NCBI RefSeq assembly: GCF_900103125.1
Contig: NZ_FNJV01000001.1
Location: forward strand, 1,240,001-1,304,000
Length of the DNA: 64,000 nucleotides
Reading direction: 5' to 3'
Origin: Mucilaginibacter sp. OK268
GTDB taxonomy: Bacteria > Bacteroidota > Bacteroidia > Sphingobacteriales > Sphingobacteriaceae
A program made the position numbers and the translations under genes. Each line of letters starts with the position of its first letter. Position 1 is the first letter of the stretch. Positions 8,614 through 53,021 of this stretch are shown one piece after another. The notes under the pieces were generated by a model, which saw only the letters and a list, made by a program, of their open reading frames with translations, was not told the DNA's origin and searched no databases.

Positions 8614-11600
8614 CTATTGATATTTTAATACGAAGAAGCCTGTTTTATGCTTTTTCTCCCCATTTACTACAAAGTCTACTTTATAAAAATAGGTGCCGGC
8701 CTGTTGTAAAGCACCTGTAACATTTGAATGCCCGTCAAACACATGGTTACTGTTATCATAGTTATAAGCCTGGAATACTAATACGCCATTGCGGTTAATT
8801 AAAGTAACCTCGTTGCCCGGATAGTTTTTGATGCCTTCTATATAAAGGAAATCGTTTATCCCGTCGCCATTGGGCGATACGGCCTGGTGAACAAGTATTT
8901 GATCTCCCGCGGCATCGTTTACTATCACCGTTCGTTTCACGCTTGTAGCAGCAAAATAATTGCTGTTACCGCTTTGGGTAGCCGTAATGGTGGTTGTTCC
9001 GATATGGATGGCGCTTAACGTTGATCCGCTTATACTGGCAATACCAGGATCGGCAGCCGTAAAAGTGACCGGCAAGCCCGAGCTTGCGGTTACTCCGCTC
9101 AGATCAAATGTCGATCCTTTATTTTGAGCCGGAATCGCTGCAAAGTCAATGGTTTGATGGGCTTTGTTAACCACCAGGGCCTGGCTTGCCAATGGGGTAT
9201 TGCTATAGTTGGCATTGGTCGCTACGGTTGCGGTAATGGTTGCCGCACCGGCACCGGCTATGTGTACTTCGCCATTCACTATAGTTGCAACCGCCACATT
9301 ATCGCTACTATAGATAATAGCTTCTCCCGAACTTGCAACTGCCCCGGGGGTAAAATCGGCATCGCCATAAGTTTTTGTTGCCAGCGGATTAAATGTTAAC
9401 GTACGGGTGGCCGGTGTAATGGTCAGCGTGCCGTTTATATAATTAAAACCATAATTACCTGATACTGCCCCAGCCGGAGTTATTGGATAAGTATCTACCG
9501 GCGATGCCGCTGTTGCCAGCGTGGTAGCTGTTGCTTTGGTGGTTAAACTGGCTGGTGTATCGCCATTTATAAAGCCGCTGTAAGTTATGGTAAACAGCGG
9601 GTTAGCATCTTTATAAATCCTGGTGGCATTACCGGCTGTTACGGTTAGTATAGCAGAGTTAATGGTCAACTTACCATTAACATAAGTAATGGTGTAATTA
9701 GCAGCGACGGCCCCGGCCGGCGTAATAGTATAAAACCCGGCTGCCGATGAGGCTGTAGCTAAGGTTGTGGCTGTTGCCGGGGTAGTTAAACTGGCTTTGG
9801 TATCGCCATTCACAAAGCCGCTGTAAGTAATGGTTAATGCAGGGTTTGCCTGTCCGTAGGTTTTACTTTGGTTATCGGCAGTTATACTTAACAAAACTTT
9901 GCCTATAGTTAAATTGGCACCAACATAAGTAAGGGTATAATTACTGTTCAAAGCTAATGTACCTTGATTAATGGCATAAACACCCACACCCTGGCCGGCA
10001 ATTCTTGTCAGCGCCCCGGCAAAGACATCCCCGTTAGCCAGACTTCCTGATGTAACGCTATAGGTTAGCGCCGGATCGGCAGCGCCATAAGTTTTGCTTT
10101 GGGCGTTGGCGGTTACCGTTATCGCTTTTGCTGTTATAATCAGGTTTGCCCCGATATAGGTAAGCGCATAATTGCTGTTAAGGGCTAGCGTGCCTTTGGT
10201 GATGGGATAATTGCCAATGCTTTCGCCCGGACTTCTCGTTAATGCTCCTGTAAAGGCGTCTGTGCCCACCAATGCTCCGCTGGTAATGTTGTAGGTCAAC
10301 GCTGGGTCGGCATCGCCATAGCCCTTGCTTTGTGCTTTAGCGGTTACGGTAATGGCTTTTGTGGTGATAGTAAGGTTTGCCCCGGTATAGGTAAGCGTAT
10401 AATTATTGCCGAGGGCCAGTGTTCCTTTGGTTATAGGATAAGAACCTGTGCTTTCTCCCGCAGTTCTGGTTAGGGCCCCGGTAAAAGCATCGGTACCTAC
10501 CAATGCTCCTGTAGTGATATTATAGGTTAATGCAGGATCAGCATCGCCATAGCTCTTGCTTTGGGCGTTGGCGGTTACGGCAATGGCTGCTTTACCCACG
10601 GTAAGTTGCTTGCTTACATTTGCGGCCGCGGTATAAGCCGCGTTACCTGCCTGTGATGCAGTGATGTTGGCTGTACCTGCACCTACAATATGAATTTTTC
10701 CGCTTACGATGGTTGCTACCGAAGTGTTGTCACTGCTGTAGGTGATCGGTATAGTATTGTTGGTACTGGTAGCTCCCGGTGCAAAATCAGCATCACCATA
10801 AGTTTTCGGAGGCAAAGCTGCGAAAGTGATGGTTTGAGTGGTTTGACCGATGCTCAAATTAGCACCCACATAAGTAAACGCATAGTTACTGTTAAGTACC
10901 AGCGTGTTTTGTAAAATGGGATAAGAACCCACGCTTTCACCCGCAGTTCTGCTTAATGCTCCGGTGAATACATCGGTACCAACCAATGCACCGCTGGTTA
11001 CCTGATAGGTCAATGCCGGATCAGGAGCGCCGAAAGCCTTGCTCTTGCTGTCGGCTGTAACAGTGATAGCTACCTTGCCAACAGTCAATGGCTTGGTTAC
11101 ACTCACAGCCGCGGTATAGTCTGCATTGCCTGCTTGTGATGCAGTGATATTGGCCGTACCGGCACCTACGATATGGATCTTACCGCTTACGATAGTGGCA
11201 ACCGCAGTATTATCGCTACTGTAAGTAACCGGTATAGTGTTGTTATTGCTGGTAACTCCCGGTGCAAAATCAGGGTCACCATATGTCTTTAACGGAAGGG
11301 CCGCGAAGGTGATGGTTTGTGGAACCTGCCCAATGGCCAGGTTTGCACCCACATAAGTTAATGCGTAATTGCCGTTAAGTGCCAGTGTGTTTTGTAAGAT
11401 GGGGTAAGAACCAACACTTTCGCCCGCAGTTCTGCTTAATGTTCCGGTGAATGCATCAGTACCCACTAATGCTCCTGTAGTGATACCATAGGTCAGTACA
11501 GGATCCAAAGCACCAAATGTTTTGCTCTTGGCATCCGCAGTAACGGTTATGGCTACTTTACCTACAGTCAATGGTTTGGTTACATTCACGGCAGCGGTAT

Positions 11601-14600
11601 AGTTTGTATTCCCTGCCTGCGACGCGGTAATGTTGGCTGTACCTGCGCCTACAATATGGATCTTGCCGCTTACTATAGTGGCAACTGCAGTATTATCACT
11701 GCTGTAAGTAACCGGTATGGTGTTGTTGGTGCTTGTAGCTCCCGGCGCAAAATCAGCATCGCCATAGGTTTTCAGAGGCAAAGCTGCGAAGGTGATGGTT
11801 TGTGAGACCTGCCCAATGGCCAGGTTTGCACCCACATAAGTTAAAGTATAGTTGCTATTAAGTGCAAGGGTATTTTGCAGGATAGGATAGGAGCCAACAC
11901 TTTCGCCGGGAGTTCTGCTTAATGTTCCCGAGAAAGTATCGGTACCAACCAATGCTCCAATAGTGATCTGATAGGTCAGTGCCGGGTCAGGAGCGCCGAA
12001 AGCTTTGCTCTTGCTGTCGGCGGTAACGGTTATGAGTGCCTTACCAACAGTCAATGGCTTGGTTACACTCACCGCAGCGGTATAATTTGCATCGCCTGCT
12101 TGTGCTGCGGTGATGTTGGCTGTACCTGCACCAACAATATGGATCTTTCCGCTTACGATGGTGGCTACCGCGGTATTATCACTGCTGTACGTGATCGGGA
12201 TGGAATTGTTAGTGCTGGTGGCTCCCGGTGCAAAATCGGCATCACCATAAGTTTTCGGAGGCAAGGCTGCGAAGGTGATGGTTTGTGGCACCTGCCCAAT
12301 AGCCAAATTTGCACCAACATAAGTTAAGGTGTAGTTACTGGTATTAAGTGCCAGCGTATTTTGCAAAATAGGATATGACCCTACACTTTCGCCCGGAGTC
12401 CTGCTTAATGCTCCAGTAAAGGCATCGGTACCAACCAATGCTCCAATGGTTACCTGATAGGTCAACGCCGGATCCGGAGCGCCGAAAGCCTTGTTTTTGC
12501 TGTCGGCGGTAACGGTGATAACTATCTTACCTACAGTCAATGGTTTGGTTACACTCACCGCAGCAGTATAGTTTGCATTCCCTGTTTGTGAAGCTGTAAT
12601 ATTGGCCATACCTGCTCCAACAATGTGGATATTACCGGCTACAATAGTGGCTACAGCGGTATTATCGCTGCTGTAGGTAATAGGTATCGTATTATTTGTA
12701 CTGTTAGCTCCGGGCGCGAAATCGGCATCGCCATATGTTTTTAATGGTAGCGCGGCGAACGTAATGGTTTGTGCTGCTTTGTTCCTGGTTACCGTTATGG
12801 TATAGGTAGATGTGGTAATACCATCCTGGGCGATTACAACGGTACTAATGATGTTTGCTCCCACAGCCAGGTTTACATTTGCTGCCGACCCCGATGATAC
12901 TGTTGATCCATTAACCGTTATTGTAGCATGGCTTTCACTTGCTACAGGTGTTACCGATAAGGCGCTGACCGCATTATTTACAGTAACTGCATAGGAAGTT
13001 TGGCCTGTTGAAAATACAGGTACTAATGTTCCTGGGTTGATGGGCAGGTTTGATAAGCTGGAATTGCTGGAAGCAAGGGTGGTAAAGGATTGTATAGTAC
13101 CAGGTGTAGTACCCAGGCTGTTGGTAGCCTTAACCTGGTAATAGTAGGTGGTTAATGGGGTAAGCCCGGTTAATGAATACGAAGCATTACCGCTTGCACC
13201 CGCGGCAAGGCTGCCATTGGTTGTGGCAGCTACGGTAGTGGCCCCGGTTAAGGTAGGGCTTAAGCCATAATTAAACACGACGGATGTTGCAGCCCCGTTT
13301 GAATTTACAAAGCCACTGATGATAGCCCCGTTTGCTGTAATAGCAGCAGGTGGGGTTAAAGTAGTAGCCGTTGGTGCTGATGCCGGTGCTGTTGAATTAA
13401 AGCTCAAGATAACTCCTTTATTGGTTCCGGCACTGTTGGTTGCAACAAGCTGGTAGTAATAGGTTGTAGAGGGGATTAAGCCGGTTAATGTTAAAGAAGC
13501 ATTGGTTAACCCTCCTCCGGCACTTATGGTGCCACCTGTAGTTGCTTGCAATGTCGTCGTAGTTCCGGAAAGATCAGCGGTTGTACCATAAGTGAAACTC
13601 ACGGTTGTTGCGCTTCCATTATCATTTGCAGAACCCTTAACAGTTTCGCTTGTGGTGGAAACAAAAGTAGACGAAGTGGTGGTTGCTGTCGGAACCTGGA
13701 TAATCGTATAGGTTTGCCCGCTGGTAAACCCTGTAGTTGTCAAATTACCTGCCTGGTCGCTTATACCGGTTGGCGGCACTTTCAGATCAAGCTTTAATGT
13801 ACCCACTCCGGATACATTATTAACGGTTACATCTAATCCGTTTGCTCCTGCCGCGGCAGTTTGAAATATAGTACCCGCGGCGGTTCCTGTTGAAACTAAG
13901 CTGAACGCGCCTGTATTACCGCCCGAAATTGGCTCTGAAAAAGTAACACGGTACACTAATGTAGTTGCATTAGTGGGCGAGGTGGCCGGGGTATGTAAAT
14001 TAATGGCGGTTACTGTAGGCGCTGTTTTGTCAAATACAACAATTTTATTGGTAGTGGATTGGGTATAAGCTGCTCCGTTATTACCGGTAAGATCTGTGAA
14101 AAGCAGGTTGAATGGTATAGTGCCTTCCACGTCGCCGGCCGTCATGGTGTAAGCAGCCGACCAGGTAATATGGTCGTTTGAGGCATTTGTAGCAGTTACA
14201 GTATGGCCAGCTATAGTTACAGTTGGTGTTTGAACAGCTTCGCTGGTGCTGAAGTTCAGTGTTACGATGTTACCAACTTTAGCTTCTGCAGTGTTGGTGT
14301 TGTTGGAAGTAAAGGTTAAATTACTGGTAGTAGGCAAGGTTTTGTCAAATGTGATCAGGTCGCCGGCAGATACATCTGTATAAGGCTGACCATTGATAGC
14401 CGGATTACCTGCCAGATCGCTAAACGAAAGGGCAAAAGTTATTCTGCCTTCCGTATCTCCACTGGTCATGGTATAACCTGCCGAATAGTTATTGCCACCC
14501 TGGTTTACAGCGGTTACGCTATGCCCGGCAATAAGAACGGTTGGTGTTTGTATAGCTTCGCTGGTGCTAAAAAGCAGTGTTACTATATCGCCTACTTTAG

Positions 14601-17364
14601 CTAATGCTGTGTTGGCATTGTTCGAGGCGTAAATAAGGCTGGTTGCAGTAGGCGGGGTTTTATCAATGGTATATACCTGCCCGGTAAAAGGTAAAGCTGT
14701 ACTGATCCCCGGTGTTATACCTGCACTATTAGCCAAATTTAAACCGATGGTGCCATTACCCGTTCCTGTATTTGCAGTTACCGTATAGGTTGCTCCGGAA
14801 CCGGTTAACGAAGTAATGCTTGCCCCGGCAATACCCGTGGTTGTAAGTGAAAAATTACTGATGGTAAGCCCCGTGATACTCGCCCCGAAGGTTACCGTGT
14901 AAGTAACCGTAGCCGTATTGGTAGGACTTGTTGATGTGCGATTTATAGAAGTTACCGCAGCATTTAACACGTTAACCGTACTGGATACGGTAGGTACGTT
15001 TACGCTGGTGGCCCCGGCACTGCTCAAAACAACATTGCCCGAGTAGCTCCCTACTGCTGTCGTAGCTGCAAGCCTTACATATACCGGGGTTGAAGTTATA
15101 TTGCCTGCCGCGCCAAGAGTAACAGTTCCGGTAAACGTGGTATTATTGGTACTTACTTCAAAACCGGTGGGAGGGGTAACTAATATCCCCGCCGTTAAAT
15201 TGGAACCTGAAACATTAAACGTGGTTGATGACGACGGGGTTCCGAAAGTGGTGGTTAAAGCAGTTAAAGTACCGGTAGCTATGATGTTGCTAATAGGTGT
15301 ATCAACATCTGTGGCGGTGTTATTTCCTGCATTTTGTTCGGTCACACCGGCAGGGGCGGTTACTGTGGCTGTGCTGGTATAATTACCTATCTGGGTTGAT
15401 GGTATCGGGGCGACGATAGTATAAGTCACCGTTGCGCCCGATGGAATATTATTGTTTACGTTGATACTAACAGTGCCGCTTGCAGTTCCTGTGGCCCCGC
15501 CTGTAAAAGCGGCAGTCCAGGTACTTCCAGTTGGGAGCGGGTTGGCTACAGTTGCTCCTATAACATCACTAGGCCCGTTGTTGGTTACTACCACAGTATA
15601 ATTATGTGTGGTACCAGATATATAGGTCGCCTGGCCATCGGTATTCGTGATGCTCAGATCGGCTAAACTGTTTTGTGTATCAACATCATTGGCCTGGTCA
15701 TTTGCCGGGTTTACATCGTTTACCCCGGCGGGGGCTGTTACCGTAGTTATATTGGTAAACGGTCCTGTCTGGTTGCTTGGTATGGGGACGATAGCGGTAT
15801 AGGTAGCTACACCATTAAAGGGAAGATTGACCAGCTCGTTAATACTGCCGTTGCCGCTCGCTGTTCCCGTTGCACCGCCTGTAAATGCCGCGGTCCAGGT
15901 ACTGCCCGCTGGGAGGGTAGTAGCTACCGTTTCGCCTGTTACAGTATTAGGGCCATAATTGGTTACCGTTATGACGTAGGTATTGGTGGTGCCTGGTGTG
16001 TAAGTTGTTGTATTATCTGTACTGACAACATTGATGTCGGCCAGTGTTAATGTGTTAAAGTTGGCCGGGTTATTTGTAGCTGCTGTGGCCAGATAACTCG
16101 TGCCTGCCCCAGTTCCACTGTATTCTACCGTCATTACACGATAGGTATTCCCGGCGCTGAGGTTGGTAATGTTCACAGTTGCACCTGTGCCGTTATAAAC
16201 GCAGTACCATCCGCTTGCACCGATCTGTGCACCTGAGCTATAAGCCGCGTTAGCAGCATAGGTTGTGCCATCTACAGGAGCCGGACTGCCTGTTGATGAG
16301 TTGGATACAAACACTGCACGCGAAGCGCCGTTACCGTTGGTCCAGCTGGCTGTAGCGCCAAAACCACTGATATTTGAAAAAACTAAATTGGAAGCTTGTA
16401 CAGTAGGAGGGCCTACCAGGTGTATGATGGCGCCCCCGTTAGTACCATCATCGCCATCGGCAACAAAAATATTACTTGCGTCAAATATGACTATACCCCA
16501 GGGATAATAAATACCATTGGAATGTAAAGGCCCATAAACCGAGGTGCCGGTTCCTGTGCCATTGGTGTATTTAACCAGCTGATAACCAGCGCCCGCGTTT
16601 TCGCTGCTGTAAAGATTACCGGAGGCATCTACAGCCAGTGCGGTGGCGTATTTGCTGGATGATACGGTTGAAACGGAATAAGCTGATGCAGCTGTTAATT
16701 TATATACATGTCCGCCATCGGTGATGGAAGGATCATTACTGAAAGCGTCTGCCACATAAATATCTCCGTTTGGAGCAATTGCCAATCCTGTTGGATAAGC
16801 ATATCCTGGTGCCGATTTTAAATTATCATATAATCGGGTACCCGCTGAACCTGCCGGGCTGCCGGCATTATATTTAACAACGGCATAAGTACCGTGCCCT
16901 GCATCATATTCGGCTGTATACAGGTTATTACTGGCGTCAACGGCCAATGCCGAATAGTAATTACCGCTTTGAAAAGTGGAAGGTGTATATACGCCACCAC
17001 TAATGGTAAGCTTAACAATGACCCCTGCATTGGAGGTGAAATCGGTAGATACATATACATCACCGGTGCTGGTTACCGCCAAGCCCCAGGGATAATCCCC
17101 TAACTCGTGGGTAAGTCCGCTGTAAATGCTAACCGGGGTACCCGTACTATTAGTGTATTTTACAACTTCATAAGTGGCTCCTCCGGTACCCGCCTTTACG
17201 CGGGTAACATATAGGTTATTGTTGTTGTCTTTTGCTAAAGCCGTATACAGGCCCCCTGTTTCCAGGTTAGTACCTGTAAGACTTGCAAAAGCAGGGAATG
17301 TGTTCCCCAAAAAAAAGAAAATTACAGCAACGGTGTAAAGGCCTTTTTTAAATAATTTCTTCAT
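8614..17364 (-). CDS. Giant (2916 aa) multi-domain T9SS cargo with MBG repeats and C-terminal type B sorting domain
   Basis: A signal peptide ends near FPAFA. Residues ~30-320 form NHL/SMP-30-like blades with repeated LAVDASGNLY-type motifs. Fn3-like and two or more DUF11 repeats (VTNNGPSDV, PAGVNDVNPAND) reach ~690. Bacterial Ig-like segments follow (LIYASNNANTALAKVGDIV and relatives). A cadherin-like sandwich lies at ~1435-1525. A long MBG region covers ~1530-2800: five 161-162-residue composite units, then single MBG_2 units. The last ~95 residues are a CHU_C/type B sorting domain (SPNGDGINDFLYIEG to GFFVLKYQ). The architecture is that of a very long surface fibre or adhesin exported by the T9SS. 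Composition is rich in Thr, Ala, Asn, Gly and nearly free of Cys. It follows the binding-protein gene by 10 bp and precedes porP by 24 bp. No catalytic domain is evident. Confidence 0.93.
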   Translation of the reverse strand: MKKLFKKGLYTVAVIFFFLGNTFPAFASLTGTNLETGGLYTALAKDNNNNLYVTRVKAGTGGATYEVVKYTNSTGTPVSIYSGLTHELGDYPWGLAVTSTGDVYVSTDFTSNAGVIVKLTISGGVYTPSTFQSGNYYSALAVDASNNLYTAEYDAGHGTYAVVKYNAGSPAGSAGTRLYDNLKSAPGYAYPTGLAIAPNGDIYVADAFSNDPSITDGGHVYKLTAASAYSVSTVSSSKYATALAVDASGNLYSSENAGAGYQLVKYTNGTGTGTSVYGPLHSNGIYYPWGIVIFDASNIFVADGDDGTNGGAIIHLVGPPTVQASNLVFSNISGFGATASWTNGNGASRAVFVSNSSTGSPAPVDGTTYAANAAYSSGAQIGASGWYCVYNGTGATVNITNLSAGNTYRVMTVEYSGTGAGTSYLATAATNNPANFNTLTLADINVVSTDNTTTYTPGTTNTYVITVTNYGPNTVTGETVATTLPAGSTWTAAFTGGATGTASGNGSINELVNLPFNGVATYTAIVPIPSNQTGPFTNITTVTAPAGVNDVNPANDQANDVDTQNSLADLSITNTDGQATYISGTTHNYTVVVTNNGPSDVIGATVANPLPTGSTWTAAFTGGATGTASGTVSINVNNNIPSGATVTYTIVAPIPSTQIGNYTSTATVTAPAGVTEQNAGNNTATDVDTPISNIIATGTLTALTTTFGTPSSSTTFNVSGSNLTAGILVTPPTGFEVSTNNTTFTGTVTLGAAGNITSTPVYVRLAATTAVGSYSGNVVLSSAGATSVNVPTVSSTVNVLNAAVTSINRTSTSPTNTATVTYTVTFGASITGLTISNFSLTTTGIAGASITSLTGSGATYTVTANTGTGNGTIGLNLANSAGITPGISTALPFTGQVYTIDKTPPTATSLIYASNNANTALAKVGDIVTLLFSTSEAIQTPTVLIAGHSVTAVNQGGNNYSAGYTMTSGDTEGRITFALSFSDLAGNPAINGQPYTDVSAGDLITFDKTLPTTSNLTFTSNNTNTAEAKVGNIVTLNFSTSEAVQTPTVTIAGHTVTATNASNDHITWSAAYTMTAGDVEGTIPFNLLFTDLTGNNGAAYTQSTTNKIVVFDKTAPTVTAINLHTPATSPTNATTLVYRVTFSEPISGGNTGAFSLVSTGTAAGTIFQTAAAGANGLDVTVNNVSGVGTLKLDLKVPPTGISDQAGNLTTTGFTSGQTYTIIQVPTATTTSSTFVSTTSETVKGSANDNGSATTVSFTYGTTADLSGTTTTLQATTGGTISAGGGLTNASLTLTGLIPSTTYYYQLVATNSAGTNKGVILSFNSTAPASAPTATTLTPPAAITANGAIISGFVNSNGAATSVVFNYGLSPTLTGATTVAATTNGSLAAGASGNASYSLTGLTPLTTYYYQVKATNSLGTTPGTIQSFTTLASSNSSLSNLPINPGTLVPVFSTGQTSYAVTVNNAVSALSVTPVASESHATITVNGSTVSSGSAANVNLAVGANIISTVVIAQDGITTSTYTITVTRNKAAQTITFAALPLKTYGDADFAPGANSTNNTIPITYSSDNTAVATIVAGNIHIVGAGMANITASQTGNANYTAAVSVTKPLTVGKIVITVTADSKNKAFGAPDPALTYQVTIGALVGTDAFTGALSRTPGESVGSYPILQNTLALNTSNYTLTYVGANLAIGQVPQTITFAALPPKTYGDADFAPGATSTNNSIPITYSSDNTAVATIVSGKIHIVGAGTANITAAQAGDANYTAAVSVTKPLTVGKALITVTADSKSKAFGAPDPALTYQITIGALVGTDTFSGTLSRTPGESVGSYPILQNTLALNSNYTLTYVGANLAIGQVSQTITFAALPLKTYGDADFAPGATSTNNTIPVTYSSDNTAVATIVSGKIHIVGAGTANITASQAGNTNYTAAVNVTKPLTVGKVAITVTADAKSKTFGALDPVLTYGITTGALVGTDAFTGTLSRTAGESVGSYPILQNTLALNGNYALTYVGANLAIGQVPQTITFAALPLKTYGDPDFAPGVTSNNNTIPVTYSSDNTAVATIVSGKIHIVGAGTANITASQAGNADYTAAVSVTKPLTVGKVAITVTADSKSKAFGAPDPALTYQVTSGALVGTDVFTGALSRTAGESVGSYPILQNTLVLNSNYAFTYVGANLSIGQTTQTITFAALPPKTYGDADFAPGATSTNNTIPITYSSDNTSVATIVSGKIHIVGAGTANITASQAGNAAYTAAANVSKQLTVGKAAIAVTANAQSKSYGDADPALTYNITTGALVGTDAFTGALTRTAGESTGSYPITKGTLALGNNYTLTYTGANLTITTKAITVTAKAQSKGYGDADPALTYNITSGALVGTDAFTGALTRSPGESIGNYPITKGTLALNSNYALTYIGANLIITAKAITVTANAQSKTYGAADPALTYSVTSGSLANGDVFAGALTRIAGQGVGVYAINQGTLALNSNYTLTYVGANLTIGKVLLSITADNQSKTYGQANPALTITYSGFVNGDTKASLTTPATATTLATASSAAGFYTITPAGAVAANYTITYVNGKLTINSAILTVTAGNATRIYKDANPLFTITYSGFINGDTPASLTTKATATTLATAASPVDTYPITPAGAVSGNYGFNYINGTLTITPATRTLTFNPLATKTYGDADFTPGAVASSGEAIIYSSDNVAVATIVNGEVHIAGAGAATITATVATNANYSNTPLASQALVVNKAHQTIDFAAIPAQNKGSTFDLSGVTASSGLPVTFTAADPGIASISGSTLSAIHIGTTTITATQSGNSNYFAATSVKRTVIVNDAAGDQILVHQAVSPNGDGINDFLYIEGIKNYPGNEVTLINRNGVLVFQAYNYDNSNHVFDGHSNVTGALQQAGTYFYKVDFVVNGEKKHKTGFFVLKYQ
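10347..12771 (-). repeat. Five tandem 483-486 bp coding repeats inside the giant gene
   Basis: The phrase ATGGTTTG recurs in register at 12764, 12278, 11795, 11312 and 10829, giving spacings of 486, 483, 483 and 483 bp. Each unit encodes one MBG sandwich (QTITFAALP, TYGDADFAPGA, YSSDNTAVATI) plus one MBG_2 domain (FGAPDPALTY, GALVGTD, GESVGSYPILQ). Neighbouring copies are similar at DNA level, so the array can change copy number by recombination. Related single MBG_2 units continue below 10347. Confidence 0.85.
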
Positions 17365-32945: not shown

Positions 32946-33032
32946 ATGTCATTGCGCGTAGCGTGGCAATCTCGTAGCTATTCCTATTGATTAGAACGTG
33001 ATGAGATTGCTTCGTACCTCGCAAAGACATGG
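32946..33032. repeat. Palindromic interspersed repeat, CATTGCG/CGCAATG family
   Basis: The segment starts ATGTCATTGCGCGTAGCG and ends GATTGCTTCGTACCTCGCAA followed by AGACATGG. Its ends form an imperfect inverted repeat. Two relatives occur in the window, at 54726-54864 and 56648-56735. It lies after the glycosidase operon. Confidence 0.7.
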
Positions 33033-33049
33033 TATAGAAATTTTCGAAT

Positions 33050-33333
33050 CTCCCTGATTTTTCGTATATTTATATCAACACCAGCCCGGATCTCTTTTTT
33101 TAGAGACCCGGGCTGTTTGGTTAAAGGGAAAATAAGACCAAAAACCGACCGTTTTTCACTTAGTTAATTGATATTCAATAAATTAATACTTTTTAAACCT
33201 TTCAAAACCCACCAAAAATTTGTTAAAAAGTGTTAAAATGGCGTTAAAAAAGTGTTAAATGGATAAAAAACAAGCCTTTTTGCCCCTGTTTTGACTAAAA
33301 AAGTGTTAAAATTTAAGGTTTAAAAAGTTTTTT
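33050..33333. repeat. AT-rich hairpin-tipped element, copy A (inverted relative of 51172-51460)
   Basis: Read on the minus strand it holds, in order, TTTTAACACTTTTTTAGTC, AAACAGGGGCAAAAA, TTTTAACACTTTTTAACAAA, GGTCGGTTTTTG and a GC-rich hairpin (33082-33115: CAGCCCGG..CCGGGCTG stem, one mismatch, T-rich loop). The same blocks in the same order and spacing occur on the plus strand at 51172-51460. The segment fills the gap up to the stop codon of the DUF1304 gene, has no ORF, and contains several AAGTGTTAAAA repeats. Nature unknown: interspersed repeat or structured RNA. Confidence 0.7.
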
Positions 33334-33334
33334 C

Positions 33335-33694
33335 TTACCTGATCAAGATAAGAATGATAGCCAGCAACGCCGGTACCGCCTGAATAAAGAATATCTTTTT
33401 GGTTACGGTAAGCGCTCCGTAAATTCCCGCTACGGCTACACAGATCAGGAAAAACAAGGCAACATTGGTATGCCACTGAGCATCGCTGATAAAAAATGTC
33501 CAGATCAAACCGGCTGCTAAAAAACCATTATATAAACCCTGGTTTGCAGCTAAAACCTTACTCTTTTCCAGTTCCTCCAGTGGTTTGTTAAAGGCTTTAG
33601 GTCCACGGGTTGTCCAGGCGAACATTTCCAGCCATAAGATATAGCAGTGTATAAGGGCTACCAGGCCAATAAGTACTTTGATAATAAGATCCAT
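33335..33694 (-). CDS. DUF1304 family membrane protein
   Basis: 119 residues with four hydrophobic helices. The DUF1304 pattern is clear: LVALIHCYILWLEMFAW, the following KAFNKPLEELEKSKVLAANQGLYNGFLAAGL, and a C-terminal hydrophobic helix. Function of this inner-membrane family is unknown. The gene interrupts the direction of the glycan locus (it is leftward between two rightward blocks) and its stop codon abuts the AT-rich repeat element. Confidence 0.9.
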   Translation of the reverse strand: MDLIIKVLIGLVALIHCYILWLEMFAWTTRGPKAFNKPLEELEKSKVLAANQGLYNGFLAAGLIWTFFISDAQWHTNVALFFLICVAVAGIYGALTVTKKIFFIQAVPALLAIILILIR

Positions 33695-50252: not shown

Positions 50253-51131
50253 TTAAAAGCTGGCATATGCCCTTACCGGGAATGTACCCACACCTTTAAA
50301 TTTTGGCGGTACCGCGTTGAATTTATAGCCGCTCTCCGGTAATTTGTCCAGGTTACATAAATGCTCAGATATCAGTATTTCGGCTCCTAATAGAATGGTA
50401 TGTACCGGGCGACTTTTACCCCGGGTGTCATCAATGTTATGGCTATCGATACCCACCAGTTTTACGTTGCATTCTTTCAAATATTCAGCTGCATCGGCTG
50501 TAAGGTAGGGATGGTTTTCAAAATATTGCGGTGTGTTCCAATGTTTTGCCCAACCGGTATAAACCAGTACAGCTTTGTTCCTGATCTCTTTACCGGTAAA
50601 ATAGCTTTTGCCAATTTCGGTTGCGTTTTCGGCATTGATGGCAATGGCATCCAGATCTGCAAAACGTTCTAACTCCATTTCAGACAGATCTTTACCATGC
50701 TCAAAACGATGAAAAGGGCAGTCGATATAAGTACCCGTATTGGTCACCATTTCTATTTTTCCTATCTGGAATTCCGTACCCGGTTCATAGTTGGCTTTGG
50801 ACTGCTCCCGGCTGAGGTAATCGCAAATGATAGGTGAAGGCAAGCCTTTATAGGTTATCAGGCCATCAAAAATGGTATGACTCAGGTCGATATATTTATC
50901 ATCAGGCTGGATATTAACAGCCTGGCGTTTATGTTTTTCTTCGATGTAATATTTGTTCAGGATATCAACCTTGCCAACCATGAGTAGCTGCATATCGTTT
51001 ACAATATAATCGGCCAGTTCCTGGTCGGTAATAGTATCGCCGACAATATCCAGTCTGAAATCCTGACCCTGGATGCCGCCGCCATTGGTGAAAGAAATAT
51101 CAAAATCAAAAACTACTCTTTTATCAGGCAT
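50253..51131 (-). CDS. Cyclase/kynurenine-formamidase-like protein with altered metal site and N-terminal extension
   Basis: 292 residues. Residues ~1-70 are an extension (FDFDISFTNGGGIQGQDFRLDI) not found in plain KynB. The cyclase fold follows from DDKYIDLSHTIFDGLITYKG. The hallmark metal motif HxGTHxDxPxH appears as N131-T-G-T-Y135-I-D137-C-P-F-H141: two of the usual His ligands are Asn and Tyr, while D137, H141, H244 (PVHTILLG) and E256 (ISEHL) remain. The protein may be inactive, use one metal, or have another chemistry. It stands between the DUF2306 gene and the AT-rich repeat copy B, with no tryptophan-catabolism genes near. Confidence 0.78.
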   Translation of the reverse strand: MPDKRVVFDFDISFTNGGGIQGQDFRLDIVGDTITDQELADYIVNDMQLLMVGKVDILNKYYIEEKHKRQAVNIQPDDKYIDLSHTIFDGLITYKGLPSPIICDYLSREQSKANYEPGTEFQIGKIEMVTNTGTYIDCPFHRFEHGKDLSEMELERFADLDAIAINAENATEIGKSYFTGKEIRNKAVLVYTGWAKHWNTPQYFENHPYLTADAAEYLKECNVKLVGIDSHNIDDTRGKSRPVHTILLGAEILISEHLCNLDKLPESGYKFNAVPPKFKGVGTFPVRAYASF

Positions 51132-51171: not shown

Positions 51172-51460
51172 AATAAAACTTTTTAAACCTTCAATTTTAA
51201 CACTTTTTTAGTCGAAACAGGGGCAAAAACGGCTCAAAAATCATTCAAAAACCCCGATTTTAACACTTTTTAACAAATTTTAACACCGTTTTGATGAGTT
51301 TTTTAAACTTTAAAAAGTATTAAATAATTGACTGTCAAATAACTACATGCAAAATGGTCGGTTTTTGTCTCTGTTTGGGCCTTAATAAAACAGCCCGAGT
51401 GTCTTTTTTACAAGAAACCCGGGCTGTTGTATCTATACAAAGATACGAAATTTTGGGTGG
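51172..51460. repeat. AT-rich hairpin-tipped element, copy B (inverted relative of 33050-33333)
   Basis: On the plus strand: TTTTAACACTTTTTTAGTC, AAACAGGGGCAAAAA, TTTTAACACTTTTTAACAAA, GGTCGGTTTTTG, then a hairpin (51391-51426, CAGCCCG..CGGGCTG with two mismatches in a 15 bp stem). Order and spacing equal those of copy A in the opposite orientation; from left end to hairpin each copy is about 250 bp. Between the blocks the two copies have diverged. It fills the gap upstream of the cyclase gene and shows no ORF. Confidence 0.7.
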
Positions 51461-51480
51461 AATATTAATCCATAAGTCCA

Positions 51481-51573
51481 GTCATCCTGAACTTGTTTCG
51501 GCACCCCACAAGTAAGGTGTATAACATATTGGCTAACTCATCCTGTGGGATCCTGAAACAAGTTCAGGATGAC
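51481..51573. repeat. 93 bp inverted repeat, CATCCTGAACTTGTTTC family
   Basis: GTCATCCTGAACTTGTTTC (51481-51499) has a perfect 19 bp complement at 51555-51573. It lies directly beside copy B of the AT-rich element and downstream of the MFS gene. This sort of palindrome is frequent between genes of Bacteroidota. Confidence 0.8.
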
Positions 51574-51638
51574 CGCTCTGTGTTTTGGTCCATCTTCGCC
51601 CAATGCTCTTTTGCCGTCTGCGCTGTAAAAGCCCTCTA

Positions 51639-53021
51639 CTACCTACTTATCTTCAAATACCGGTAAATCAACAAAAGGATACAAACTATGCCCGCGGCCG
51701 AAATAAGGGAACTCACCGTTATAGCATTTACTATAGCTTCTGGGCCGCCGTTGGTCATGGCGCCAAATACAGCTACGCCCATGGCGCCAGCGGCTTGTCG
51801 CGTGGTGTTTAATACTGCCGATGCTGTGCCGGAACGGGTTTTGGCCACGGTGGATAAGATACCCGTGGTCATGGCGGGTACGGCAAGCCCCATCCCCAGT
51901 GGAATGATAATAAAAGGGAAAAACAGCTGCCAGTAGGGCGTATGCGCATGTGCGATGAGCAAGCCAGCATAACCGATTGCGCCGATGCTGAGCCCTGTGA
52001 TGATGGGTACGCGTGTGCCGTATTTGGCCATGAGTTTGCCGCTGATGAGATTGGAAATGATAAACCCTGCTGTAAGCGGTAAAAAAGCCATGCCTGCTGT
52101 GAGGGAGGGGTAATGAAGTACATTTTGCAGGTACAGGCTCAGCACAAATACGGTTCCGTAATAGGTGGCATTCAATACGATGCCCTGTAATACCAGCACA
52201 TTAAAAACCGGCGACTTAAACAGATCCAGTGGAAGGATAGGGGACCTGGCTTTTTGTTCTATCCGCAGAAAAATAATAAACATAATGGCGCTGAAAATAA
52301 GCGCGCCGTAGATGATGGGATTGTTAAAACCGAGGTGGTGCAATTCGATAATAGCCGCTATAAGCGCCGTAAGTGCCAGCATCCAGGTAAGCTGACCGGG
52401 AATATCAAAACCTTTGTTGGCGTGTTTTTCGCTTTCGGTGAGTTTAACGCTTAACAGGATACCGATCAGACAAATAGGAACGTTCACAAAAAATATCATC
52501 CGCCAGTTGCTCACGTGCATCAGCAGGCCACCGAGGATTGGTCCGGCAGCTATGGATACACCACCGGCAGCTGTCCACCAGGCTACGGCTTTGCTGCGTT
52601 GGGTAGCCTCATGGGCAAAGCTCTGGTTTAGGATGGATAGGGAGCTGGGGATCATGGCTGCTGCACCAACACCCTGCAACACGCGGAAAACGATCAGACT
52701 AAATGGGTTCCATGCAAAACCACAGCCTGTAGAGGCTATGCCAAATACTAACAGACCAAATTGAAAAAGCCGCTTCGATCCCAGCAGATCACTCATGCCA
52801 CCAGCCGAGAGCATCAGCACGGCAAAAGCGATGGTATAAGCATCCACTATCCATTGCAGTTCGCTGATATCAGCCTTAAACGAGGCGGATATCTGCGGCA
52901 GCGCGATGTTCACGATGGATACATCCAACTGCGATACCACAAATGCCAGACTGGTGGTACCCACTATAAAAATAAAGGGAGATTTTGTTTTGCGTCCTCT
53001 GCTTATCGCCGCCTCTGCCAT
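51639..53021 (-). CDS. MFS multidrug exporter, DHA2 (EmrB/QacA) family
   Basis: 460 residues with 13-14 transmembrane helices. DHA2 signatures are visible: motif D1-like SQLDVSIVNIALPQIS, ELQWIVDAYTIAFAVLMLSAGGMSDLLGSKR (motif A), RVLQGVGAAAMIPSSLSIL (motif B) and GPILGGLLMHVSNWRMIFFVNVP (motif C). It is an inner membrane proton-coupled exporter, probably for hydrophobic drugs. EmrA-like or TolC-like partners are not adjacent. It is followed by the CATCCTGAAC palindrome. Confidence 0.92.
   Translation of the reverse strand: MAEAAISRGRKTKSPFIFIVGTTSLAFVVSQLDVSIVNIALPQISASFKADISELQWIVDAYTIAFAVLMLSAGGMSDLLGSKRLFQFGLLVFGIASTGCGFAWNPFSLIVFRVLQGVGAAAMIPSSLSILNQSFAHEATQRSKAVAWWTAAGGVSIAAGPILGGLLMHVSNWRMIFFVNVPICLIGILLSVKLTESEKHANKGFDIPGQLTWMLALTALIAAIIELHHLGFNNPIIYGALIFSAIMFIIFLRIEQKARSPILPLDLFKSPVFNVLVLQGIVLNATYYGTVFVLSLYLQNVLHYPSLTAGMAFLPLTAGFIISNLISGKLMAKYGTRVPIITGLSIGAIGYAGLLIAHAHTPYWQLFFPFIIIPLGMGLAVPAMTTGILSTVAKTRSGTASAVLNTTRQAAGAMGVAVFGAMTNGGPEAIVNAITVSSLISAAGIVCILLLIYRYLKISR

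Follow-up and report, generated by a model that had tools for sequence, protein, structure and literature searches.

A position-conserved intergenic element of Mucilaginibacter with a paired hairpin and a phased A/T-tract array

Two AT-rich stretches of nearly equal length, here called copies A and B, share a set of ordered sequence blocks within a window of 64,000 nucleotides from Mucilaginibacter sp. OK268 (contig NZ_FNJV01000001.1; the genome, G000 below, comprises 7.16 Mb in 19 contigs). The resemblance raises the question of whether the two stretches represent a functional element and, if so, of what kind. The initial annotation of the window had listed five ordered blocks and a CAGCCCG hairpin, both of which were verified in each copy; its limits lie near the element spans in Table 1, and its blocks lie on the minus strand in copy A. 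Each element is composed, in order, of a sigma-ABfr-like promoter end, a GC hairpin, an IHF-type site, a series of phased A/T-tracts and a sharp end, TTTAAAAAGTTTT.

Table 1. Features of the two copies, in window positions. The strand is that of the predicted transcript, which starts just ahead of the hairpin.
Feature	Position	Strand	Remark
Copy A, whole element	33042-33331	+	span includes the promoter end
Copy A, -33 position	33042-33044	+	TTT here, consensus TTG; placed by the anchored composition of 96 copies
Copy A, -7 box	33065-33072	+	TATATTTA; family form TAnnTTTR
Copy A, GC hairpin	33082-33115	+	compensatory changes within the family
Copy A, IHF-type site	33173-33185	+	WATCAANNNNTTR, one mismatch here; exact in 56/96 copies of the family
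Copy A, A/T-tract array	33116-33331	+	phase of about 10.5 bp; final bases TTTAAAAAGTTTT
Copy B, whole element	51175-51468	-	span includes the promoter end
Copy B, -33 position	51466-51468	-	TTA
Copy B, -7 box	51438-51445	-	TATCTTTG
Copy B, GC hairpin	51391-51426	-	internal mismatches here; G300 orthologue pairs better
Copy B, IHF-type site	51321-51333	-	one mismatch here
Copy B, phased A/T-tract array	51175-51390	-

Both copies have repeats beside them. Adjoining copy A (32948-33031) is a REP-like inverted pair, GTCATTGCG ... CGCAAAGACAT, whose sequence turns up in numerous Mucilaginibacter genomes (query 1-34), and adjoining copy B (about 51480-51575) is a long inverted repeat, TCATCCTGAACTTGTTTCGG ... 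CCTGAAACAAGTTCAGGATGA, which resembles repeats next to other copies.

The family in the genome

A BLASTN search of G000 with the element returned at least 40 places, copy A itself included, at E <= 1.3e-45; among the matches listed, those other than A show 74-86% identity, mostly over near full length. A left-edge pattern (24 fixed bases, up to three mismatches) occurs at 109 places (60 + 49), and the reversed pattern, used as a control, at none. The initial annotation had proposed a genome-wide search and had allowed that no further copies might exist. Further copies were found, both in G000 (at least 109 in total by the left-edge pattern) and in its relatives. Low-complexity AT sequence, its other reservation, is insufficient as an explanation: the tract period of 10.5 bp, the IHF-type site and the curvature, all described below, are missing from dinucleotide-shuffled sequence.

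The detailed comparisons are based on 99 copies; 100 of the 109 pattern places were listed, not all of which were read, and L080 and L082, outside the edge expression, were left out. Edge composition and the IHF-type site each draw on 96 rows, the first structure alignment on 94 and the stems on 93. One edge of the element is AAAACTTTTTAAACC (GGTTTAAAAAGTTTT on the other strand), outside which conservation is near background except in the first bases. At the opposite edge, with 96 copies aligned on AAATATAC, conservation stops at three positions (C 47%, A 69%, A 76%; TTG on the other strand), located 20 bp from TATATTT(G/A). Rfam gave no match at the gathering threshold in the 64-kb window, and each of the 11 sub-threshold matches in 33000-33400 lies below its gathering score. 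Among the open-licence papers listed for the subject, none describes the element by title or abstract, and none treats an intergenic repeat of Mucilaginibacter.

The best reading, to which we give an even chance, is that of a dispersed, position-conserved DNA-architectural border element, which combines an RNA hairpin with a bent, protein-wrapping site. The hairpin would stop transcripts that arrive from the gene upstream or that start at the sigma-ABfr-like promoter of the element itself; a bending protein, either of the HU/IHF family or gyrase, would wrap the curved DNA; and the wrapped complex would keep the genes on its two sides apart in transcription and in supercoiling.

Promoter-like end and GC hairpin

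The sigma-ABfr promoter, as described in PMC7366714, consists of TAnnTTTG at -7 and TTTG near -33. A -7 box of the form TAnnTTTR is found in 91 of the 99 copies, 36 of which have the full TAnnTTTG, and TTG lies 18-22 bp upstream in 31. The promoter end resembles a sigma-ABfr promoter in its sequence, with an imperfect match that counts against the border-element explanation.

In the predicted transcript the GC hairpin sits beside the promoter, at the 5' rather than the 3' end. In the 93 copies with both arms, the first 12 pairs comprise 1020 Watson-Crick, 53 G-T, 23 A-C and 20 other cells; such cells, like the z-scores and binomial p-values, overstate independence because the copies share descent. 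G-T cells are thus in excess over A-C on the predicted strand. Re-dealing the arms among copies lowers the pairing (e.g., from 0.90 to 0.64 for pair 9). Between orthologues, two-sided changes still pair in 36 cells at 22 loci and are broken in 8, and one-sided changes retain pairing in 42 cells and break it in 23. A 27-row alignment contains two-sided changes in six of its 26 predicted pairs, all within the GC hairpin. The paired changes that had been noted in copies A and B are borne out by these compensatory changes at single loci, and comparison of the copies shows the hairpin to be selected for pairing. The structured RNA suggested at the same time is supported for this hairpin only: over the whole length, RNAalifold adds just one AT stem, which joins the mid-motif with the 3' end and in which none of the 12 pairs is changed on both sides, and a whole-length structured RNA was rejected as a candidate.

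These data also bear on the improbable alternative that the copies are multi-copy small-RNA genes, the hairpin RNA of which would act in trans, perhaps with HU, in the manner of naRNA4 of E. coli REP325. Such genes would account for the promoter-like end and for a hairpin selected as a single strand, in which G-T cells outnumber A-C cells even in the copies with a divergent upstream gene (17 versus 6). A repeat-encoded RNA, naRNA4, is described as working with HU in the condensation of nucleoid DNA (PMC6907758), whereas the Mucilaginibacter RNA is only predicted. The remainder of the transcript, however, lacks covarying structure, the promoter match is imperfect, and the constancy of helical phase and of length suggests that it is the DNA that matters.

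Within the border-element explanation, the hairpin is probably a terminator. The best hint comes from the site upstream of ffh, which carries the element in 7 of the 30 genomes read: in several element-less genomes the upstream gene is followed, by eye, by a plain terminator-like hairpin with a tail like CCTGTTTTGTTT, and the elements of G308 and G244 have their hairpin at the equivalent place, after the same kind of gene end. The terminator reading is weakened by the poor T-tail 3' of the hairpin (median 5 T of 8) and by terminator consensus scans of copies A and B, which found none. In 31 of the 99 copies the upstream gene is divergent, so that a terminator there would have no transcription to end other than that started by the element itself.

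IHF-type site and phased A/T-tract array

The site WATCAANNNNTTR ahead of the mid-motif is exact in 56 of 96 copies and present with at most one mismatch in 81, compared with 0.1% exact in shuffled sequences. The corresponding numbers for the other three species are 29 and 55 of 78 copies. By this measure the element carries a putative IHF-type site. The consensus used is that of Proteobacteria, and a single gene of the HU/IHF family (PF00216; C17:431787-432056) was found in G000; both points count against the border-element explanation. IHF sites are also contained in the RIB/RIP types of E. coli BIME.

Each copy contains a median of 17.5 A/T-tracts (range 14-22). Their period in G000 is 10.5-10.75 bp, with a power of 5.81 at 10.5 bp versus 0.54 in dinucleotide shuffles. 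Eleven diverged elements (three each in G244 and G308, four in G280 and one in G292; L283 and the weak elements of G285 and G295 are left out of this set) give a power of 4.41 versus 0.40 in mononucleotide shuffles, in a sample that favours this layout because it was found by a model of it. The distances between parts are equally regular. From the hairpin end to the mid-motif there are 64-65 bp in 88 of 93 copies, and from the mid-motif to the 3' end 148-150 bp in 91 of 93; the other two have 139 bp, one helical turn less. The same distances measure 62-66 and 147-149 bp in ten diverged elements. Larger gaps in the profile alignments of three diverged elements are of 8 or 10 nt, and the arrays of two G000 subfamilies appear, by eye, to be shifted by about 10 bp relative to each other. 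The array of AAGTGTTAAAA repeats had been proposed to bind protein, which remains plausible, but the conserved feature is helical phase and spacing rather than that word: diverged relatives retain phase and lengths with different words. A weak match in G292 (L309), adjoining a DEAD-box helicase gene, has the same layout with a different hairpin sequence and a different tract word.

Phased AT-tracts can cause curvature (PMC4132750). The A/T-tracts of the element are in helix phase, as is characteristic of intrinsically curved DNA, and a wedge model (Bolshoy parameters) predicts for the most bent 150 bp a median ratio of contour length to end-to-end distance of 2.31, versus 1.16 in shuffled sequences and 1.10 in left flanks. 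The array, about 214 bp or some twenty helical turns, is accordingly predicted by the model to be strongly bent DNA. Helically phased A/T-tracts with predicted curvature are shared with the AT-tract segments described for bacterial genomes in PMC4132750, from which the element differs as a discrete, homologous and position-conserved family with a hairpin and a promoter end. The fixed build, kept despite sequence change, suggests a role in chromosome folding or gene separation.

A more specific version of the border-element explanation, and an unlikely one, is that the copies are strong gyrase sites, at which gyrase would wrap the array and remove positive supercoils at gene borders, as at E. 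coli BIME-2. Gyrase is described as preferring a motif of 10-bp phased composition and as cleaving in BIME-2 (PMC6379681), and the phased tracts, an invariant length close to the known size of the wrap and the co-directional bias of the copies (see below) agree with this; yet the element is AT-phased along its whole length, and a gyrase site needs no IHF-type site.

Conservation among species and gene context

Among 149 genomes of the genus, the edge pattern is found 109 times in G000, 101 in G300, 95 in G022 and 92 in G296, once each in nine others and not in the rest. The restriction to four genomes did not stand, being partly an effect of the edge pattern: a covariance model (E <= 1e-6; the best 12 or fewer candidates per genome scored, with stricter filters) has matches in 10 of the 149 genomes. 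The six additional genomes are G280 (at least 12 matches), G308 (8) and G244 (7), together with three weak cases, G285 (2), G292 (1) and G295 (1).

In the other three species (G296, G300 and G022) we read 83 copies, mostly exact edge-pattern matches and therefore favouring well-kept copies. The flanks place 76 of the 83 at sites shared with G000 (52 through both flanks, 24 through a single one), with a median flank identity of 87%; the other 7 match no G000 copy in either flank. Across 73 pairs of orthologues, differences affect 42.1% of free and 1.9% of the most conserved columns, compared with 65.9% and 0.9% in 400 random paralogous pairs. The initial proposal that retained blocks suggest function is supported by the roughly 20-fold fewer orthologue differences in conserved than in free columns. 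Gene conversion between copies, rather than selection, may be behind the conserved columns; complete homogenisation is argued against by the free columns, which differ less between orthologues than between paralogues (42% versus 66%). The closest G000 copy is the orthologue in only 16 of 39 cases. Sequence comparison shows that each of four species carries some hundred copies of the family, in a fixed geometry maintained by selection.

Fifteen outgroup elements were set against the flanks of the G000 copies. Both flanks agree in five, a single flank in two and neither in six; another has only short matches to two copies. The remaining one, in G292, matches by one flank and lies at the same helicase gene as a G000 copy, yet it is inverted and next to a different gene, and was therefore excluded from the shared sites. 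At site A in G022, only the part from the mid-motif onward remains, the hairpin half having been lost without visible damage, which counts against the border-element explanation. The family would have spread in the ancestor of a Mucilaginibacter clade by some copying process, and the copies would then have stayed at their sites.

Bacterial intergenic repeats are mostly regarded as mobile remnants or short palindromes. That the copies are merely what an ancestral burst left behind, a MITE-like repeat now domesticated or dead and with no present function, has little probability: neither pattern nor model finds the element in most genomes of the genus, and relatives have element-less sites, as would be expected, but strong constraint and compensatory changes followed the burst, diverged relatives keep rigid lengths, and terminal inverted repeats and target duplications gave no signal. 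When one end is compared with the reverse of the other, the longest common word has a raw median of 6 nt, and the ends differ by eye. The longest word shared by the flanks averages 4.02 nt versus 4.07 in shuffled pairs and reaches 7 or more in 3 of 99 copies, a comparison in which old duplications may have decayed. The alternating mosaic of 20-40 bp palindromes of REP/BIME is likewise absent, the elements that were read having a single hairpin each. Membership in the MITE and REP/BIME classes was thus rejected on inverted ends, target duplication and palindrome mosaic.

The filled and empty sites observed among relatives are ffh (7/30) and site B. In G000, 507 bp including copy B separate a cyclase gene (50253-51131) from an MFS gene (51639-53021); in G244 the element is absent and 11 unaligned bases lie between the two gene matches. 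Copy B thus sits in what was apparently an operon, opened in G000, the genes of which are nearly adjacent in G244.

Several known repeats share parts of this build. E. coli REP/BIME (BIME-2) are also intergenic and numerous, contain a hairpin and have been connected with IHF, with gyrase and with borders of supercoiling (PMC6379681, PMC6907758), and BIMEs are described as able to impede supercoil diffusion (PMC6907758); the Mucilaginibacter element is longer (about 290 bp) and has one hairpin and a 214-bp phased array of fixed length in place of alternating short palindromes. The Correia elements (NEMIS) of Neisseria are intergenic and carry, in their 155-bp form, an IHF site and promoters (PMC2229807). 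Unlike the Mucilaginibacter element, in which neither was seen, they have terminal inverted repeats and target duplications, and the description in PMC2229807 speaks, where it covers their structure, of no phased array.

Gene context was assessed with a crude custom gene caller in 99 copies. The called gene is overlapped by 13 copies on the promoter side, with an overlap above 30 nt in 10 of them, and by 10 copies on the array side, with such an overlap in 1. The copies lie mostly between genes. On the predicted strand, 49 are co-directional with both neighbours and 15 opposed to both (p 2e-5, for copies that share descent), 19 lie between convergent genes and 16 between divergent ones. A co-directional gene comes next in 65 of 99 copies, and 58 times it starts 35-217 nt past the array, as would suit an upstream enhancer in which the curved DNA activates the promoter of the next gene. 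We consider such an enhancer very unlikely, given that in 34 of 99 copies the array end faces a convergent gene, the stop of which lies within 26 nt in 30, and that the 30 nt past the array end hold no positional signal except in the first bases.

The border-element explanation can be carried further, to a new class of locus: about 100 pre-bent wrapping sites of fixed length (64 + 149 bp) with a transcribed hairpin cap, retained at equivalent gene borders in different species by selection on shape and spacing more than on sequence, which would act as topological chromosome borders. This extension is tentative and may well be wrong. The family holds its shape (helical phase, fixed lengths and a paired hairpin) at about 100 gene borders while its sequence drifts, and if the proposed role is true it would offer a natural experiment, within Bacteroidota, on how the folding of the nucleoid, supercoiling and the borders of transcription respond to curvature and wrapping at gene borders. 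The spacing of the copies is irregular (47 places on contig 1 of G296, gap CV 0.92 versus 0.97 for random places, P 0.37), which counts against the border-element explanation. On sampled stretches of the same contig, the elements lean with the GC skew, but long open reading frames do so too, and a replication-linked orientation of the elements was set aside. The minus strand of the window itself holds an open reading frame of 2916 aa (8614-17364).
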